From Acidobacteriota bacterium (GTDB lineage Bacteria; Acidobacteriota; Terriglobia; 20CM-2-55-15): 33,051 bases of DNA. A model generated the notes under the pieces. The model saw only the letters and a list, made by a program, of their open reading frames with translations. It did not search any database and was not told the DNA's origin. The translations under genes were made by a program, and so were the position numbers. The stretch covers positions 1 to 33,051 of the forward strand of contig JAJEDW010000176.1 of NCBI GenBank assembly GCA_022821265.1. Direction: 5' to 3'. Of this stretch, positions 5,710-33,051 are shown piece by piece; within the stretch, counting starts at the first letter, position 1; each line of letters begins with the position of its first letter.

Positions 5710-6678
5710 TCACCCGGCCCCTGGAATCCTGTCGGCGATCGCGCGCATCACGGCCTCGCCGTGGAATCGCCCGTTCTCGATGAATATCTCCTTGTGGCGG
5801 CGTCCGGCGACGACCGATCCGGCCAGGAACACTCCCGAAACGTTCGTCTCGAAGGTGTCCGGGTCGTAGGCGGGAAGCAGTATTTCGGGGTCGTATTCGA
5901 CGCCAAGCTGGTCGAAGAACGTGGTGTCGGGGTGGTATCCGGTCAGGGCGAACACGTGTTCGGCCGGCAACTCGAATGTCGTCGATCCCTGGCGCGCCCG
6001 GACGCGCCCGGGAAGAATCTCCTCCACGACCGTGTCGAGAAACGCGCGCACCTCCTTGCGCTCGATCCGGTTCTCGATATCGGGCTTCACCCAGTATTTC
6101 AAAGATTTTCCCAGCTCCGGCCGACGGTGAAGCAGCGTCACGCGGGCGCCGGCGCGGAAGAGATCCAAGGCCGCCTCGGCGGCCGAGTTCTGACCGCCGA
6201 TCACCACGACGTCCCGATCGAAGAAGCCGTGCGCCTCGGTGTAGTAGTGCGAAACGTGGGGCAGGTCTTCGCCGGGAATTCCCAGCATGTTGGGATTGTC
6301 GTAATAGCCGGTGGCGATCACCACGTTACGCGTTTCGTAGGTGTCGGCGGCCGTGACGACGCCGAAGCCGCCGTTCTTCCGCGCGATCCGCCGGACTTCC
6401 TCGTATTGCCGAACGTTCAGCGTTTGCGTCTGCACGGCCCGGCGGTAATACTTGAGCGCCTCGAGCCGGGTGGGTTTTTCCCCGGCGCACACCATCGGCA
6501 GATCCCCGATTTCCAGAAGCTCCGGCGTCGTGAAGAACACCATGTGCGTCGGGAAGTGGAAGATGGAATTGACCACGCACCCCCGATCGAGCACCACGCA
6601 GCCGAGACCGAGCTTGCGGGCATGGAGCGCGCAGGCCAGACCCGTCGGTCCGGCGCCGATCACGACGGCGTCAAGCAT
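5710..6678 (-). CDS. ypdA: YpdA-family FAD/NAD(P)-binding reductase (bacillithiol-disulfide reductase-like)
   Basis: A 322-residue two-dinucleotide-fold flavoprotein of the YpdA/Bdr family, which in Firmicutes reduces bacillithiol disulfide with NADPH. Evidence: FAD motif GAGPTGLACALHA (residues 8-20), the YpdA-typical NSIFHFPTHMVFFTTPELLEIGD-like region, IATGYYDNPN, the NADPH motif VVIGGQNSAAEAALDL, ALTGYHPDT and IFIENGRFHG. The ATG at 6678 overlaps the dapF end by 8 nt. Odd point: the Cys of the Firmicutes GGGPCG motif (Cys14 in S. aureus) is Thr12 here; a Cys occurs four residues later. The substrate is therefore uncertain. Last gene of the long minus-strand run. Confidence 0.88.
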   Translation of the reverse strand: MLDAVVIGAGPTGLACALHARKLGLGCVVLDRGCVVNSIFHFPTHMVFFTTPELLEIGDLPMVCAGEKPTRLEALKYYRRAVQTQTLNVRQYEEVRRIARKNGGFGVVTAADTYETRNVVIATGYYDNPNMLGIPGEDLPHVSHYYTEAHGFFDRDVVVIGGQNSAAEAALDLFRAGARVTLLHRRPELGKSLKYWVKPDIENRIERKEVRAFLDTVVEEILPGRVRARQGSTTFELPAEHVFALTGYHPDTTFFDQLGVEYDPEILLPAYDPDTFETNVSGVFLAGSVVAGRRHKEIFIENGRFHGEAVMRAIADRIPGAG

Positions 6679-7525
6679 CGTGATACCCGCCCTCGGCCAC
6701 CACCTCGGCGGTGGAAACCAGACGCAGGCGGTCGTCATCGTTCCGCCACTCGACTTCCAAAACGCCGTTCTCGGTGTGCACCGTCACACGCCGTCCCGTT
6801 CGACCATTCAGCACGGACGCGACGACGGCGCCGCACGAACCCGTGCCGGAAGCCGGCGTCGGTCCGGCTCCGCGTTCCCAGAACGCGACGTCGATCGCGT
6901 CGCGCCCGCGCACGTGCACGAACTCGACATTGGTCTTGTTGGGAAACGCCGGGTGACGCTCCAACAGCGGGCCCAGCGCGTGGACCTCGCCGGCGTCGAT
7001 CGCGTCCACGAACAACGTGCAGTGCGGGTTGCCCGTCGCGCAGGCCGAAATCCGCACCGTCCGCCCGTCCACTTGCAACGGATAGTCGACCACCTTCTCC
7101 GCCGCGGATACGGCCCGGAACGGGATCTTCTCCGGAACCAGCTCCGGACGGCCCATGTCGGCCGCGTAGCGGTCGCCTTCGCGCCGCAGGGTATAGACCC
7201 CCGACGCTGTCCGAAGCCGGACCGCATCACCGGACGCGGCGCCGTTGCCGAACAGGTAGGCCGCCAGGCAGCGGAGTCCGTTGCCCGAACACTCGGCCTC
7301 GCTGCCGTCGCTGTTGATGATGCGGAGCCGGACCGCATCCGAGCCCGCGTGCCAGACGATCAGGCCGTCACCGCCGACCCCGGACCGCCGGTCGCAGATT
7401 TTCCGGCCGAGCGCGGCGTAGTCGCGGCCGGGGACATGGCTCTCCTCGACGAGGACGAAGTCGTTGCCCAGAGCCTGGGTCTTGACGAAAGGAACCATCC
7501 GGATCATCCGCTTCGGTCGATTCAC
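6671..7525 (-). CDS. dapF: Diaminopimelate epimerase
   Basis: Interconverts LL- and meso-diaminopimelate for lysine and peptidoglycan synthesis, without cofactor, using two cysteines. Both are present: Cys79 in SEAECSGNGLRC and Cys231 in SGTGSCG (numbered from the GTG at 7525). Other signatures are FVKTQALGNDFVL, SGVGGDG and TGNPHC. With the GTG at 7525 it has 284 residues and overlaps the PfkB kinase stop as GTGA. ATGs at 7507 and 7498 (MVPFVKTQALGNDF) are equally good alternatives giving nearer the usual 275 residues. Its 3' end overlaps ypdA by 8 nt. Confidence 0.95.
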   Translation of the reverse strand: MNRPKRMIRMVPFVKTQALGNDFVLVEESHVPGRDYAALGRKICDRRSGVGGDGLIVWHAGSDAVRLRIINSDGSEAECSGNGLRCLAAYLFGNGAASGDAVRLRTASGVYTLRREGDRYAADMGRPELVPEKIPFRAVSAAEKVVDYPLQVDGRTVRISACATGNPHCTLFVDAIDAGEVHALGPLLERHPAFPNKTNVEFVHVRGRDAIDVAFWERGAGPTPASGTGSCGAVVASVLNGRTGRRVTVHTENGVLEVEWRNDDDRLRLVSTAEVVAEGGYHDA

Positions 7526-12319: not shown

Positions 12320-13255
12320 TCAAGCCGATGCCTGACGCGCGTCCGGACGGAAGTGTTGCCAGCCCCGGGGTTCCAGAATCGCTTCGCCGGAGTCCCCGAC
12401 AAGCACGATCCGATTCGACTCGCCGGCGATGATCTCGCCGATGCGCACGACGGGGACGCCGTCGACTTCGGCGGGGAGATCCGGCGCCGTGACGAGCAAC
12501 TCGTAGTCCTCGCCGCCGTGCAAGGCCATTTCGATGCCGGCTCCGGGATGACAAGGAACGGAATCGCGCTCGATGCGCGCCGATACCCCGGATTCGGTCA
12601 CGATGTGCCCGAGATCGATCGAGAGGCCGTCGCTGACGTCGATCATCGCCGTCGCCTGAGGCGCGAATTGCCGGCCGAGCCGGTGCCGTGGTTCGGGGTA
12701 GAGATGGCGCCGAATCGCGGGATCGGTCCGGGGGCCGGACTCGAGCCGCGTCGAACCGAGCGCCGCGCCGCCAAGGCACCCGGTGACGTAGATCCGATCG
12801 CCGGCGCGGGCGCCGTTCCTCCGAACGGCCCGGCCCGCCTCGACGTGCCCCATCATCGACACGTCCACGAAGATCCGTTCGGACGAGGACGAATCGCCGC
12901 CGACGATCGCGACGTTGAAACTCCGGCAGGCCTCGGCGGCGCCGTCGAGGAAACCGTCGATCCAGCTTTCCTCGAGATCGGCCGGCACGGCCATGGAAAT
13001 CAGGCACCGGGTCGGGACCGCCCCCATGGCGCCGATGTCGCTGACGTTGACGGCGATCGACTTGAATCCGACGGAGTCGGAAGGATGCGTGCGCCGCTCG
13101 AAGTGCGTGTTCTCGACGAGCAGGTACGAGCACAGGACCGCCCGGCAACCGTCGGGCAGGTCGACGACGGCCGCGTCGTCGCCGATTCCGACTTCCGCGC
13201 CGGACTCGGAGAACCGGCGGCGTATCTTCCGAACGAGCGCAGCCTCGGAGTACAC
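12320..13255 (-). CDS. thiL: Thiamine-monophosphate kinase
   Basis: Phosphorylates thiamine monophosphate to thiamine diphosphate. 311 residues, typical for ThiL (PurM-like fold). Motifs: GIGDDAAVV (residues 23-31), LVENTHF, FKSIAVNVSDIGAMGAVP, VGGDSSSS, IYVTGCLGGAALG, MIDVSDGLSIDLGHI and GGEDYELL. The GTG at 13255 gives the normal N-terminus (YSEAALVRKIRRRF) and sits 4 nt after the lon stop. Odd point: the conserved TD.LV motif that helps hold Mg-ATP reads SYLLV, so the Asp is Tyr44; a single T-for-G change in the codon would explain it. Either an adaptive change, reduced activity or a sequence error. Confidence 0.92.
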   Translation of the reverse strand: MYSEAALVRKIRRRFSESGAEVGIGDDAAVVDLPDGCRAVLCSYLLVENTHFERRTHPSDSVGFKSIAVNVSDIGAMGAVPTRCLISMAVPADLEESWIDGFLDGAAEACRSFNVAIVGGDSSSSERIFVDVSMMGHVEAGRAVRRNGARAGDRIYVTGCLGGAALGSTRLESGPRTDPAIRRHLYPEPRHRLGRQFAPQATAMIDVSDGLSIDLGHIVTESGVSARIERDSVPCHPGAGIEMALHGGEDYELLVTAPDLPAEVDGVPVVRIGEIIAGESNRIVLVGDSGEAILEPRGWQHFRPDARQASA

Positions 13256-13259
13256 GCCG

Positions 13260-15659
13260 CTATGCCTTCCGCGACGCCGCGTTGCGGCGCGCGCGGACGC
13301 GGCCGCCGATGACGGCGGCTTCCACGACATCGGCCACCGTGTCCGCCAGAACGAACTCCATGTCGCGCCTGGATTCCGCATGGACGTCTTCAAGATCGCG
13401 CTGATTCAACCTGGGCAGAATCACAGTCCGGATGCCGGCCCGGCGCGCGGCCAGAACCTTCTCCTTGATCCCGCCGACGGGAAGAATCTCGCCCCGCAAC
13501 GTGATCTCTCCTGTCATGGCGATGTTGCGATGGATGGGGCGGTTCGACAGCAGGGAGATGATCGCGGCCGCCATCGTGACTCCGGCCGACGGGCCGTCCT
13601 TGGGAATGGCGCCGGCTGGAACGTGTACGTGAAGATCGTGAGTCGCGAAGAAGTTCTCGTCGATCCCCAGCTCCGCGGCCCGCGACCGCGCGTAGCTCAC
13701 GGCGGCCCGGGCCGATTCCTTCATCACGTCGCCGAGTTGCCCGGTCAACGTCAGGTCTCCGGCGCCTTTCATGGCCGTGGCCTCGACGAAGAGGATATCG
13801 CCCCCGACCGGCGTCCAGGCCAGCCCGGTCGACACGCCGACGACGTCCCGCTTCAGCAGCGCGTCGCGGAAGACCTCGGGACGGCCGAGATAGGCTTCGA
13901 GCTTCCGGACCGTCAGCTTCACCTTCCGCGACCGGCCCGTCGCGACATTGCGCGCGATCTTGCGGCAAACACTCGCGATACACCGTTCCATGTGCCGCAG
14001 GCCCGCTTCCTTCGTGTAACCGGAAATGATGTGGCGAATCGCGGCTTCGGTGAACTCCACGCGGGCCGGACCGAGCCCGTGTTCCTCGAGTTGTTTCGGT
14101 ATCAGGTGCCGACGCGCGATGGCGATCTTTTCCTCTTCGGTGTACCCGCTCAGCGAGATCACTTCCATTCGGTCGCGGAAAGCCGGCTGGATCGGATCCA
14201 GCATGTTCGCCGTCGTTATGAACATCACGTTCGAGAGGTCGAACGGCACCCCGAGGAAGTTGTCGCGGAACGCGTGGTTCTGTTCCGGATCCAGCACTTC
14301 GAGAAGCGCCGAGGAGGGATCTCCGCGGAAGTCGGCGCCGATCTTGTCGACCTCGTCCATCATGAACACCGGATTGTTCGTGCCGGCCTGCTGAATGCCT
14401 TGGATGATGCGCCCCGGCATGGCTCCGACGTACGTGCGCCGATGGCCGCGAATTTCGGCCTCGTCGTGCACGCCGCCCAGGCTGAGCCGGACGAACTTGC
14501 GCCCCAGCGCGCGGGCGATGGATCGTCCCAGCGAAGTCTTTCCGACCCCCGGCGGGCCTGCGAAACAGAGGATGGGACCGCGGGAATCCCGTTTCAGCTT
14601 GCGCACGGCCAGGTGCTCGACGATCCGGTCCTTGACCTTGTCCAGCCCGAAGTGATCGTCATCGAGAATCGCCTGGGCCTTTTCCAGGTCCAGGTTGTCT
14701 TTCGTGGACTTCGACCACGGGAGGTCGACCATCCAATCCAGGTAGTTTCGAAGCGTTGCCGTCTCGGCGGATTCCGGTTGCATGCGCTCGAGCCGGTCGA
14801 CCTGCCGCGTGGCCTCCGCGACGGCCTCCTCCGGCATCCCGGATTCGGCGATCCGCGTCCGGTACTGCTCGATTTCTTCCTGGATCTCGTTGCCCTCGCC
14901 CAGCTCCCGCTGAATCGCCTTGAGTTGCTGGCGCAAGTAGTACTCGCGTTGAGTCTTGTCGATCTCGCCCTTCGCCTGCTTATTGATGTCGTCCTGGAGC
15001 TCGAGCAACTCCAGTTCGCGGGCCAACAGGCCGCGTACGCACCGAAGGCGCTCGGACGGATCGGTCAACTCGAGCACTTCCTGGGACTCCTCGACCCGGA
15101 GGTCCAGGTTCGAGGCCACCAGATCGGCCAGACGCCCGGGATCGTCCAGGTTGGCCGCGATCACCGCGACGTCCTGAGACACGTTCCGGCCCAACGCGAT
15201 CACGCGCGCGAGCAGCTCCTTGATGCTGCGTTTCAGCGCTTCGAGCTCCATCGACGCGGGCGGCGTTTCTTCATCGATGGGGCGCACCTGCGCCCGGAGA
15301 AAACCGGACGAGACGTCCAGATGCTCGGCGCGGGCGCGAGCGAAGCCCTGCACCAGGACCTGAACCCGGCCGTCGGGAAGCTTGAGCATCCGCATTATCA
15401 GGGCCACGGTGCCGAACGCGTGCAGGTCCGCGGCGGCCGGCTCCTCGACACGTGCATCCTTCTGCGCCGCCAGCAGGACCATACGGTTCTCGGCCAGGGA
15501 TTCGTCCACGGCTCGAATCGATTGGGGACGGGTGACGAAGAGCGGCACGATCATGTACGGAAACGCGACCACCTCCTGCAGCGGAAGGACCGGCAGTACG
15601 TCGGGAATCGCCAGCTCCTGTTCCGCCCCTTCTTCCAACCGGCCTTTCAGAATCTGCAT
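13260..15659 (-). CDS. lon: ATP-dependent Lon protease
   Basis: Homo-oligomeric AAA+ serine protease for misfolded and regulatory proteins. 799 residues: N-terminal substrate-binding domain (about 20-215, starting with [20 protein letters not shown]), a coiled-coil linker, AAA+ module with Walker [10 protein letters not shown] (Lys374) and VFMMDEVDK Walker B, and the protease domain with Ser691 in [10 protein letters not shown] and Lys734 in [10 protein letters not shown], the Ser-Lys dyad. The ATG at 15659 follows a GGGGAG ribosome binding site. It lies directly downstream of hsp20, a natural protein-quality-control pair. Confidence 0.97.
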
Positions 15660-29346: not shown

Positions 29347-29870
29347 TAGCGGAAGACCGTCAGCAGGCCGACGATCGTCTTGGCGTCCCGGATCCTTCCG
29401 TCGGTGATCATGGCCAGAGCATCGTCGCGCCGCGCCCGGATCACCGAGATGAACTCGTCGTCCTCGAGCCGCTGCGCCCTTGGAACCAGGCCGGTGGCCT
29501 CGAACAGGTGCATGCGCTCGTCCGTGAACCCCGGCGCGGTATAGAAGCTGGACAGCTCCCGAAGCCGGGCCGCCCTGTAACCGGTTTCTTCCTCCAACTC
29601 GCGCTTCGCAGTGACGATGGGGTCTTCGCCTTCTTCACGCGTGCCGGCGGGCAACTCCAACAGTTCTTCGCCGGCGGCGTGACGGTACTGGCGGACCAGA
29701 ATCACCTCGTCCGGCGCCGGCAAGGCGACGACGGCAACCGCCCCCGGATGCTCCACGATATCGCGCGTGATTTCTCTTCCGTCCGGATTGAGCAGCCGAT
29801 CCGTCCGCACGCGTATTCGCCATCCCCGAAAACCCACGCTGCTCTCCAGCAGCTTCCACGTCGCGTTCAT
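29346..29870 (-). CDS. NUDIX hydrolase, ADP-ribose pyrophosphatase-like
   Basis: 174 residues. A complete Nudix box GX5EX7REUXEEXGU is at residues 76-98, from GTREEGE through RELEEETGY, with the metal-binding Glu residues intact. ELPAGTREEGE, SSFYTAPGFTDERMHLF and FEATGLV fit the ADP-ribose pyrophosphatase subgroup (NudF-like), which splits ADP-ribose to AMP and ribose-5-phosphate. The ATG overlaps the argD stop as ATGA. Confidence 0.92.
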   Translation of the reverse strand: MNATWKLLESSVGFRGWRIRVRTDRLLNPDGREITRDIVEHPGAVAVVALPAPDEVILVRQYRHAAGEELLELPAGTREEGEDPIVTAKRELEEETGYRAARLRELSSFYTAPGFTDERMHLFEATGLVPRAQRLEDDEFISVIRARRDDALAMITDGRIRDAKTIVGLLTVFR

Positions 29871-31078
29871 GCCTTCTCCAACTCGGCGCGCAGAGCCGCG
29901 ATGAACTTGTCGATCGGCTTCTTCTGGATGATCAGCGGCGGAAGAAAGCGAAGGACGGTGTCCCGGGTCGAATTCGCAATGAACCCGGCCTGGATCAGGC
30001 GTTCCACCACCGGACGCGCGGCGACGCCGAGCTCGAGGGCCAGCATCAGGCCGTCGCCGCGCGCTTCCCGGACGGCGGGCAACACCAACAGCTCTTCCAA
30101 CCGCCGCTTGAAGTACGACCCGACTTCACGGGCCCGATCCAGGAGGCGTTCCTCCTCGATGACTTTCAGCACCTCCAACCCGATGCGGCACGCCAGCGGG
30201 CCGCCTCCGAACGTCGTGCCGTGGATTCCGGCGCGAATCGGATCCGCCACGGCCGCTTTCATCAGGACGGCCCCCATGGGGATGCCGCCGGCAAGCGGTT
30301 TGGCGATCGCGATCAGGTCCGGCCGGTCCGCGTACGCCGCGCCCGGGGGGAGGCATCTCTCGAACGCGAACCAGCGTCCGGTGCGGCCGAGGCCGCACTG
30401 GATCTCGTCGGCGATCAACGCCGCGCCGGAGGCGCGCGTGAGCTCGCGGGCACGGCGGTAAAACGCGTCCGAAATCGGCCGTACACCGCCTTCCCCTTGC
30501 ACGGCCTCGAGGATGACCGCCCCCACGTCCTCCGAAAACCGTCGCTCGAGATCCTCCACGTCGTCGAACCTGACGAAGTCGAATCCCGGAACCAGCGGTT
30601 CGAACGGGTCCCGGTACCGGGCGGGATGCGTCGCCGACAACGCCCCCATCGTCCGCCCGTGAAACGACCCGTCGAGGGCGAGCACCCGGTGCTTCCGCGC
30701 TCCGCCGCGCCCGGAATTCGCGAACAGGCGCGCAAATTTCAAGGCCCCCTCCACCGACTCCGCCCCGCTGTTCGTGAAGAAGGTCTTCTCGAGTCCCGAG
30801 ATCGCGTACAGCCGCCGGGCCAGCCGGCCCGCGTGCTCGTGGTAGAGCAGGTTCGAAACATGCAACGGGCGCTTGATCTGCTTTCGCAGAACACGCACGA
30901 TCCGCGGATGGTTGTACCCCAGGACATTGACGCCGATCCCGGACAGGAGATCGAGATACCGCTTGTTGCTCCGGTCGATCAGGTACGGCCCGCGGCCCCG
31001 GTCGACGAGGATGTCGTACCGGTTGTAGGTGCCGAGCAGGTGCTCCGCTTCCAGCTCGTGGACGCTCTTGAGAGACAT
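29867..31078 (-). CDS. argD: Acetylornithine/succinylornithine-type aminotransferase
   Basis: A 403-residue class III PLP aminotransferase. Motifs: LDLLSGIGVNVLGYNHPRI near residue 43, TNSGAESVEGALKFAR (102-117), DGSFHGRTMGALSAT, LEAVQGEGGV, ADEIQCGLGRTGR (223-235), and the PLP-binding Lys260 in IAIAKPLAGG. Overall length and motif set match ArgD, which transaminates N-acetylglutamate semialdehyde in arginine synthesis; a related omega-aminotransferase cannot be excluded as no other arg gene is nearby. Divergent from the selenoprotein gene, 224 bp apart. Confidence 0.88.
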   Translation of the reverse strand: MSLKSVHELEAEHLLGTYNRYDILVDRGRGPYLIDRSNKRYLDLLSGIGVNVLGYNHPRIVRVLRKQIKRPLHVSNLLYHEHAGRLARRLYAISGLEKTFFTNSGAESVEGALKFARLFANSGRGGARKHRVLALDGSFHGRTMGALSATHPARYRDPFEPLVPGFDFVRFDDVEDLERRFSEDVGAVILEAVQGEGGVRPISDAFYRRARELTRASGAALIADEIQCGLGRTGRWFAFERCLPPGAAYADRPDLIAIAKPLAGGIPMGAVLMKAAVADPIRAGIHGTTFGGGPLACRIGLEVLKVIEEERLLDRAREVGSYFKRRLEELLVLPAVREARGDGLMLALELGVAARPVVERLIQAGFIANSTRDTVLRFLPPLIIQKKPIDKFIAALRAELEKA

Positions 31079-31264: not shown

Positions 31265-31302
31265 GTAACGAGCAGACACACAAAATCGGGAGGACCCCCT
31301 CA

Positions 31303-31845
31303 ATGAAAAAGGTCTTCTGGCTGTTGCCGGCCGTCATGGTGCTGTCGACGGCCACGGCGTTCCCTCAATTGCAGGCGCCCGGCGCCGACAACACGCCGGC
31401 CCTCGGACAGCCGGCCCCGGATTTCGAGGGCCCCGCGGGAATGGGCCCGGCGACCTTGGGCCTCAAGGACTTCGACGGCTACGTGCTGCTCGCGTTCTTC
31501 CCGGCGGCTTTTACGGGCGGCTGAACGCGCGAGTTCACCGAGTTCGGTGAAAGACACGACGACTTCCAGGCGTTGGACATCGACATCGTGGGCATTTCCC
31601 GCGACATGGCCCCGGCGCAGAACGTTTTCAGGGAACAGGTCGGCGCGCAGAACCAGTTCATCAGCGACCCGTCCATGCGCGTGATCAACATGTACGGCGC
31701 GGGGCGGGAAGGCGCCAACGCGCCCGCGCAGCGGTTCTACTTCCTGATCGATCCCGACGGGACGCTGGTGTGGAAGAACGTGACCAACCAGCTCATCCCG
31801 GTGGAAGCCCTGCTCGATGAGTTGACCGAAGTCGTTCAAGGTTGA
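31303..31845 (+). CDS. Exported peroxiredoxin with selenocysteine (in-frame TGA at codon 74)
   Basis: Reduces hydrogen peroxide or organic hydroperoxides. Read through the TGA at 31522-31524, the frame gives 180 residues of the AhpC/TSA (AhpE-like) fold. Residues 1-19 are a signal peptide (KK, hydrophobic core, ATA site). GQPAPDF opens the domain; FFPAAFTGG-Sec-TREF places the TGA exactly at the peroxidatic Cys of the PxxxTxxC motif. The same frame continues with VGISRDM, FISDPSMRVINMYG, the conserved Arg in APAQRFYFLIDPDGT, and ends DELTEVVQG. The thioredoxin fold is colinear on both sides without any frame change, and a SECIS-like hairpin follows the TGA. There is no Cys anywhere, so no resolving Cys. 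Clear GGGAGG site. The alternative is a Cys-to-stop pseudogene, less likely given the hairpin. Confidence 0.88.
31522..31551 (+). promoter_or_regulatory. Bacterial SECIS-like element after the in-frame TGA
   Basis: TTCACCG (31534-31540) and CGGTGAA (31545-31551) make a perfect 7-bp stem with loop AGTT (31541-31544). The loop begins 16 nt after the TGA and has G as its second base, meeting the usual bacterial SECIS rules (loop 16-37 nt from UGA, a G in the first two loop positions). It should recruit SelB with Sec-tRNA. Confidence 0.75.
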
Positions 31846-31892: not shown

Positions 31893-33051
31893 ATGAAGAT
31901 CCTCACCGCGGCCGAAATCCGGCGGATCGATCGGCTGTCCCACGACGAGTACGGCATTCCGGGAACGATTCTCATGGAGAACGCCGGCATGCGCGTCGTC
32001 GAAGCCGTTGACGCGTGCGTCGACGACCTCGACGGGGCGTCGGTCCTCGTGCTCTGCGGCAAGGGCAACAACGGCGGCGACGGCTTCGTCGCCGCCCGTC
32101 AACTGATCCAGCGCGGCGCCGCGCCCCACGTTTTCCTGTTCGCCCGGCCCGACACCGTGGCCGGCGACGCGCGGCAGAATCTGGACATACTCACGGCTCT
32201 CGGCCACGCGCCCGTCGTCGTCGATGGCCAGGAGGCCTGGGACGAGGCCGCATCGCGGATCGGCCAGGTCGACGTCGTCGTCGACGCCTTGTTGGGAACG
32301 GGGCTGTCGAAGCCGGTCGAGGGACTTCTGGCGCGGGTGATCTCCTCGATCAACGACGACTTCCCGCGGGCCGCCGTCGTCTCGGTCGACGTGCCGTCGG
32401 GAAGCGCCGCTGACAGTGGGGAAGTTCAAGGTCCCGTGGTCGAGGCCGACGTCACGGTCACGTTCTCCGCGCTGAAACACTGCCTGGTATCGCCCCCGGC
32501 ATGCCATTTTGCCGGCGAGGTCATCGTCGCCGACATCGGCAACCCGCATACGCTGATCGATTCCGCGCGCGGCGCCGTCGAGCTGCTCGACCCGGAATCG
32601 TTTCCCGATGCGGCGTTTCCTCGGGACCTCGACACGCACAAGGGGGACTACGGGAAGATCCTGATCGTCGGGGGGTCGTTGGGCAAGGGGGGCGCGGCCG
32701 CGATGGCCGCTCGGGCCGCGCTGCAGTCCGGGGCGGGCCTCGTCACGGCTGCCGTGCCGCGAGGCACGCTTCCGGTAGTGGCCTCCCACACGCCCGAGGT
32801 GATGACGGAAGCGTTGCCGGAAACCGCCGAAGGGACCTTGTCGGCGGAAGCGTTGCGCCGCGTCGGCAACCGGCTGGTCGAAGGCAAGTCGGTCGTCGCC
32901 ATCGGTCCGGGAATCGGCGATCATCCCGAAACGTTCGACGCCGTGCGCGGCCTGGTGAAGGGGCTGGCGCTACCCTGCATCGTGGATGCGGACGGAATCA
33001 ACGCGTTCGCCGGACATACCGAGGCCCTGGCTCCCGACGGTCCGGTCGCTC
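31893..33051 (+). CDS. nnr: Bifunctional NAD(P)H-hydrate repair enzyme (3' end cut by window edge)
   Basis: Repairs damaged NAD(P)H hydrates: the N-terminal domain epimerises and the C-terminal domain dehydrates with ADP or ATP. 386 codons are visible with no stop, so about 100-130 residues are missing. N-terminal YjeF_N part: ILTAAEIRRIDRLSHDEYG, LMENAG, LCGKGNNGGDGFVAAR (about residues 50-70), DALLGTGLSKPVEG and SVDVPSG. C-terminal carbohydrate-kinase-like part begins THKGDYGKILIVGGSLGKGG with the nucleotide loop and SGAGLVTAAVP, then IGPGIG and DADGINAF. No convincing Shine-Dalgarno sequence; a hairpin precedes the ATG. Confidence 0.94.
   Translation, partial: MKILTAAEIRRIDRLSHDEYGIPGTILMENAGMRVVEAVDACVDDLDGASVLVLCGKGNNGGDGFVAARQLIQRGAAPHVFLFARPDTVAGDARQNLDILTALGHAPVVVDGQEAWDEAASRIGQVDVVVDALLGTGLSKPVEGLLARVISSINDDFPRAAVVSVDVPSGSAADSGEVQGPVVEADVTVTFSALKHCLVSPPACHFAGEVIVADIGNPHTLIDSARGAVELLDPESFPDAAFPRDLDTHKGDYGKILIVGGSLGKGGAAAMAARAALQSGAGLVTAAVPRGTLPVVASHTPEVMTEALPETAEGTLSAEALRRVGNRLVEGKSVVAIGPGIGDHPETFDAVRGLVKGLALPCIVDADGINAFAGHTEALAPDGPVA

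Follow-up and report, generated by a model that had tools for sequence, protein, structure and literature searches.

An in-frame TGA occupies the codon of the catalytic cysteine in a peroxiredoxin gene of an acidobacterium. The gene lies near the 3' end of the window, the whole 33,051-nucleotide contig that was analysed here. We put at roughly 95% the probability that it encodes a probably exported peroxiredoxin with selenocysteine (Sec) as the attacking residue, inserted at UGA codon 74 by means of SelB and a hairpin in the mRNA. We favor this reading because the same TGA is conserved among relatives, the genome contains the Sec machinery, cysteine codons are the only alternatives found at the site and the hairpin covaries. 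The selenocysteine interpretation given in a preliminary description of this DNA is supported. The protein family, the position and conservation of the TGA, the Sec machinery and the covariation of the hairpin are computed results.

The reading frame and its product

The coding sequence extends on the plus strand from the ATG at 31303 to a terminal TGA at 31843..31845 (31303..31845), and direct reading places the internal TGA (31522..31524) at codon 74. A Shine-Dalgarno-like GGGAGGA (31288..31294, plus strand) is found 8 nt 5' of the ATG. Reading through the internal TGA yields a product of 180 residues including Sec74, with the sequence FFPAAFTGG-U-TREF across the codon. The read-through product matches the Pfam families AhpC-TSA (86.1 bits, cut-off 26), over residues 35-157 and spanning the TGA, and Redoxin (56.9 bits, above the curated cut-off). 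Alignment of Sec and Cys forms puts the UGA at the peroxidatic position of the PxxxTxxC motif. The preliminary description had located the TGA in frame and exactly at the catalytic Cys of this motif, with coordinates that are right to the base. It had also expected gene callers to report fragments of 73 and 90 residues, and the standard list of open reading frames (ORFs) does give a 73-codon stretch ahead of the TGA and, at 31573..31845, a 90-aa ORF. ORF lists of this kind split such genes in two, and the enzyme is easily missed both here and in relatives. On the opposite strand, an antisense ORF of 179 aa (31300..31839, minus strand) is one of 141 ORFs of at least 80 aa in the window.

The 180-residue product contains no cysteine at all. 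The resolving Cys of the 2-Cys peroxiredoxins is absent with the rest, and the protein is therefore assigned to a 1-Sec type. The parts before and after the TGA both look like constrained coding sequence. Relative to the copy in the other species of the genus (G001), the 73 codons before the TGA have 15 synonymous and 3 amino-acid-changing differences (dN 0.019, dS 0.397), and the 106 codons after it have 9 and 5, respectively (dN 0.021, dS 0.138).

Conservation of the TGA

The protein was used as a query against 41 genomes (the window's own and others of the genus, family and class) at 1e-10, which gave 65 matches. A hand count of the listed rows found 40 with an internal TGA, 25 free of stops and none with TAA or TAG; the second TGA of one match (L035) is its terminator. 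Further stops and frameshifts in relatives had been named beforehand as evidence that would count against selenocysteine. The 65 matches have no further stops, and those that are interrupted carry the same single TGA.

Within the family the TGA form is present in 8 of 11 genomes (the window's own, G001, G002, G003, G004, G006, G007 and G008), that is, in 7 of the 10 others, at 54-95% identity; the G006 copy is cut at a contig end. Four genera are represented among the TGA-bearing copies of the family. The codon is TGC in three Cys copies: G005 and G010 have this form only and G006 has both forms, while G009 has no match. Because these close relatives have a Cys form, Sec is not indispensable. 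Three genomes of a second family (f8) share the same TGA and the same hairpin shape.

Alignment of Cys homologues across the TGA, as the preliminary description proposed, was obtained by running an HMM over loci from L025 on, some of which were fetched twice. In the 148 aligned rows the catalytic codon is TGA (74), TGC (41) or TGT (33) and nothing else. Removal of 26 duplicates left 122 rows, 56 Sec and 66 Cys, although one of the latter (L047) has a UPFC motif and carries a TGA of its own three codons before the aligned position. The Sec/Cys label changes 7 times on a quick tree of the 122 rows, in which several branches are long and many forks weak; the mean for shuffled labels is about 40, and 0 of 500 shuffles were as low. 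Each of the 56 Sec rows either has an acidobacterial title or comes from the class of the window, and every row from another phylum is Cys. The PxxxT motif is not strict in the Sec rows, with Val in place of Pro in L035-L037. On these alignments, the placement of the TGA at the catalytic codon is beyond chance.

A profile search across the class (399 genomes) gave matches at 1e-30 in 188 of them; the profile was made from the Sec rows with the Sec column left blank, so its ranking leans to their relatives. Among the 150 class-wide matches listed, 135 have exactly one internal TGA, 15 have none and 0 have TAA or TAG (hand count), the TGA being placed at the catalytic column for those matches that were fetched as loci. 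Three further genomes of this class have Sec-peroxiredoxin genes in neighboring pairs, approximately 0.5-0.6 kb apart: L053 (1677, 2286), L054 (317, 912) and L051 (1160, 1632).

These comparisons bear directly on the idea that the gene is decaying, a nonsense mutation having split a Cys-peroxiredoxin into two halves that persist as remnants. Such decay would agree with the two fragments of the standard ORF list and with the intact Cys form in some relatives. It is very improbable, however, given that four genera share the stop at this codon in a frame with no other stop, that dN/dS is low 3' of the TGA and that neither TAA nor TAG appears in the 65 matches or among the class-wide matches listed.

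Selenocysteine machinery

The window corresponds to all of contig C229 in a 3.88 Mb draft genome (351 contigs, 85.6% complete). The preliminary description predicted that SelA, SelB, SelD and a tRNA-Sec would be encoded in this genome and that none would be in the window. All four were found, outside the window: SelA on C56 (550 bits), SelB on C125 (384 bits) and SelD on C109 (362 bits), each above cut-off, and a tRNA-Sec with anticodon UCA at C71:789-886 (75 bits). The SelD of C109 is itself a Cys form, reading SAGCAGK. A SelD-like match within the window (12539..13195) was considered as the genome's SelD and rejected; it is below cut-off and inside an AIRS-domain protein (12320..13393, minus strand).

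AhpC-TSA matches number 14 in the genome, and 6 of these have one TGA. The TGA-bearing genes are of the TxxU type (C71, C207:36821 and the gene described here on C229) or the UPxC type (C178, C207:8501 and C115). Two of the three UPxC genes start with a signal-like sequence, as judged by eye. The 8.7 kb contig C71 holds both the tRNA-Sec (789-886) and the second Sec-peroxiredoxin (6624-7007), which has no signal-like start.

SelB is above cut-off in 35 of the 41 genomes. By hand tabulation, 29 of the 30 genomes that have a TGA-bearing match carry such a SelB, versus 6 of the 11 that lack one (Fisher p 0.003, kinship uncorrected). The exception is G023 (88% complete), which has two TGA-bearing peroxiredoxin matches and no SelB above cut-off.

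The complete Sec machinery also argues against a selenium-free product, in which the TGA would specify some other amino acid or a near-cognate tRNA would read through it. Reassignment of TGA and read-through are known in some bacteria, but elsewhere in the window TGA behaves as an ordinary stop. It ends three of the five clear window genes that were checked and is the terminator of the peroxiredoxin gene itself. Moreover, wherever the aligned site does not have TGA it has a Cys codon. We give this explanation the same slight chance as decay. Least probable of all is an error of sequencing or assembly in which the true codon is TGC, one base away, in a draft genome as fragmented and incomplete as this one, since the TGA recurs in separately assembled records, among them JAJEEE010000025.1, QHWY01000237.1, MNKP01000005.1 and JAHFTY010000060.1.

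The bSECIS-like hairpin

A bSECIS-like hairpin (31534..31551, plus strand) starts after an interval of 9 nt from the UGA, the distance given in the preliminary description. It has a 7 bp stem, the loop AGUU (31541..31544) and a folding energy of -8.7 kcal/mol. The bSECIS model, as outlined in the relevant part of a review (PMC13188914), comprises a loop of 3-9 nt, a stem of 4-16 bp, a G in the first two loop positions, a distance of 16-37 nt from the UGA and an energy of -7.5 kcal/mol or lower. The window hairpin agrees with this model in stem, loop size and energy, its G is second in the loop and its loop lies 16 nt after the UGA, as the preliminary description had held for spacing and loop.

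Hairpins of this kind are common in the window. A bSECIS-like hairpin (-7.5 kcal/mol or lower) follows 102 of the 724 TGA triplets on both strands, and one at least as stable as the hairpin described here (-8.7) follows 66 of the 724 in this GC-rich window. Among shuffled sequences 34 of 200 fold as well, for a z-score of only -0.89. The mere presence of the hairpin would thus be weak evidence, and it is persuasive only through covariation. The support that the preliminary description drew from the hairpin holds in so far as the stem covaries in Sec copies and is lost in Cys copies; presence alone does not provide it.

Covariation was assessed in 11 Sec copies (10 distinct rows) that come from two families. 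In these copies 91% of the stem cells are paired and 5 of the 7 pairs have changes on both sides. The covariation score is 0.498 versus 0.209 when shuffled (0 of 500 as high) and at most 0.219 when slid, and a run without L135 gave a similar result. Two of the five covariation measures are unexceptional: for the number of pairs with changes on both sides 33 of 500 shuffles scored as high, and for further pair types 370 of 500 did. Several compensatory changes only separate the two families. The last three letters of the loop (GUU) and the loop-closing G-C pair are constant, whereas a large part of the stem varies. All three Cys copies of the window's family have lost two inner pairs, and pairing among them drops to 62%.

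The wider set shows the same tendency in a comparison of related rows under a model without bulges. The best hairpin has a median of -5.5 after Sec codons (56 rows) versus -1.6 after Cys codons (66 rows), but a hairpin of -4 kcal/mol or lower is found in only 35 of the 56 Sec rows, and in 14 of the 66 Cys rows. The bSECIS shapes of the 56 Sec rows include a 4-nt loop of the AGUU type at 16 nt in 11 (families f1 and f8) and a triloop at 23 nt in 32; the other 13 have other shapes.

Structure, active site and predicted export

An AlphaFold model built with 10 alignment rows has a pLDDT of 74.2 and a pTM of 0.73, and a helix begins directly after residue 74. In the PDB the nearest folds belong to peroxiredoxins, BCP/PrxQ among them; the matches listed have TM-scores of about 0.5-0.75, and a sequence search of solved proteins points to the same families. 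Thr71 and Arg144 (codon 31732..31734, plus strand) are invariant in both protein alignments (A1 and A4), and Pro67 in A1 only. Arg144 is the probable catalytic Arg, presumably acting with Pro67, Thr71 and Sec74 as in peroxiredoxins in general.

The N terminus resembles a signal peptide over about residues 1-22 (31303..31368, plus strand). It is positive by a crude, home-made signal rule based on hydrophobicity, relatives show the same pattern and residues 1-26 have a pLDDT below 50 in the model. The window protein probably leaves the cytoplasm by way of this signal. The rule is passed by 52 of 56 Sec rows versus 11 of 66 Cys rows, a contrast that stems mainly from the Cys rows of other phyla; among the four Sec rows that fail, L108 has too little DNA 5' of the catalytic codon. 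It is also passed by 10 of the 15 acidobacterial Cys rows, so predicted export goes with the clade and not with selenium. The Cys-free state is not general either, as one or two further Cys are present in 44 of the 56 Sec rows and none in 12.

We infer Sec insertion, export, the catalytic cycle and the nature of the reductant as follows. At UGA codon 74 the ribosome would accept Sec-tRNA-Sec delivered by SelB, which would recognize the mRNA hairpin just after the UGA, and translation would continue to the real stop at 31843. The N-terminal signal would move the protein out of the cytoplasm. There Sec74, together with Pro67, Thr71 and Arg144, may attack hydrogen peroxide or organic peroxides and become a selenenic acid. 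Because the protein has no cysteine it would be reduced from outside, by a thiol or a thioredoxin-like partner. For a product of this composition the simplest mechanism, on the pattern of peroxiredoxins in general, is a 1-Sec cycle that draws on an external reductant.

Genomic neighborhood

The divergent upstream neighbor is a class-III aminotransferase (29867..31078, minus strand). An NAD(P)HX epimerase/dehydratase (YjeF_N and Carb_kinase; 31893..33051, plus strand) follows 47 nt after the peroxiredoxin stop and is cut by the contig end. Both were identified with Pfam. The same aminotransferase/YjeF pair flanks the peroxiredoxin gene in L055 and L056. In L058 YjeF is found 3' of the gene, and the upstream frame tested there matched no Pfam family. 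TsaE is next after YjeF in L055 and L058. This conserved gene order gives no clear clue to the reductant. A plasmid search gave no match.

Relationship to known peroxiredoxins

Sec-peroxiredoxins with a TxxU motif are an established bacterial selenoprotein family, for which the pertinent part of the review gives the Eubacterium acidaminophilum enzyme as reference (PMC13188914). Selenoproteome tables listed 12 members in 2006, when the count of selenoproteins in Acidobacteria was 4 (PMC1794560), and 91 members in 78 organisms in 2016 (PMC5029168). For the acidobacterium Occallatibacter riparius, another report gives 3 known selenoproteins (PMC12013277). The precedent invoked in the preliminary description is therefore real, but its phrase "a few bacteria" understates a family that is established in these tables (PMC13188914, PMC1794560, PMC5029168). 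The window protein shares with the reference type the AhpC-TSA family and the Sec at the peroxidatic position in PxxxTxxU, and we hold with high confidence that its gene is a real selenoprotein gene of this known kind. Features that may set it apart from the members in the TxxU tables are its signal-peptide-like start, its lack of any Cys and a host genome with heme-copper oxidase genes.

The window protein is homologous over residues 32-159 to the thioredoxin-dependent peroxiredoxin PrxU of NCBIfam (NF040737). At 50.2 bits against a cut-off of 270 it is not a member of that family. The matched stretches of six other Sec rows score 46-69 bits with PrxU, and no NCBIfam cut-off was reached among the matches listed. 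BCP/PrxQ proteins (2cx3; Sulfolobus Bcp1, 3drn, and Bcp4, 3hjp) are among the nearest solved sequences and folds. In 2cx3 a Cys takes the place of the Sec, and the window protein differs from BCP/PrxQ in having no second redox residue. The Prx-like UxxC thiol:disulfide oxidoreductases belong to the same Pfam family, but their Sec is the first residue of UxxC whereas that of the window protein is in TxxU.

Breadth in the class and implications

Heme-copper oxidase subunit I (COX1) is above cut-off in 40 of the 41 genomes, the window's own included, which shows capacity and not lifestyle. One COX1 match (G034:C39:17496-18905) has one internal TAG. Aerobic bacteria rarely retain selenoproteins, according to the part of the 2026 review that treats their distribution (PMC13188914). 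Among the papers listed in searches of the open-licence literature there was neither a survey of selenoproteins in acidobacteria nor a Sec-peroxiredoxin described as exported. The combination of a signal-peptide-like start, the lack of any other Cys and the class-wide occurrence of similar Sec-peroxiredoxins in genomes with heme-copper oxidases is possibly new.

We lean towards the view that a whole class of acidobacteria equipped to respire oxygen, as judged from its genes, has evolved a family of exported peroxiredoxins that use selenium, contrary to the rule that selenocysteine is avoided in aerobes. The window's clade would have the leanest form of the family, a Cys-free 1-Sec enzyme with a bSECIS shape (AGUU-type loop at 16 nt) that differs from the triloop at 23 nt. 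The breadth of probably exported Sec-peroxiredoxins in the class is the larger point, and it is less certain than the identity of the gene itself. If the class-wide pattern holds, it would call into question the view, as expressed in that part of the review, that aerobes rarely retain selenoproteins (PMC13188914). It would also provide a natural Sec/Cys series within a single enzyme, itself probably exported, with which the advantage of selenium in the presence of oxygen may be measured.
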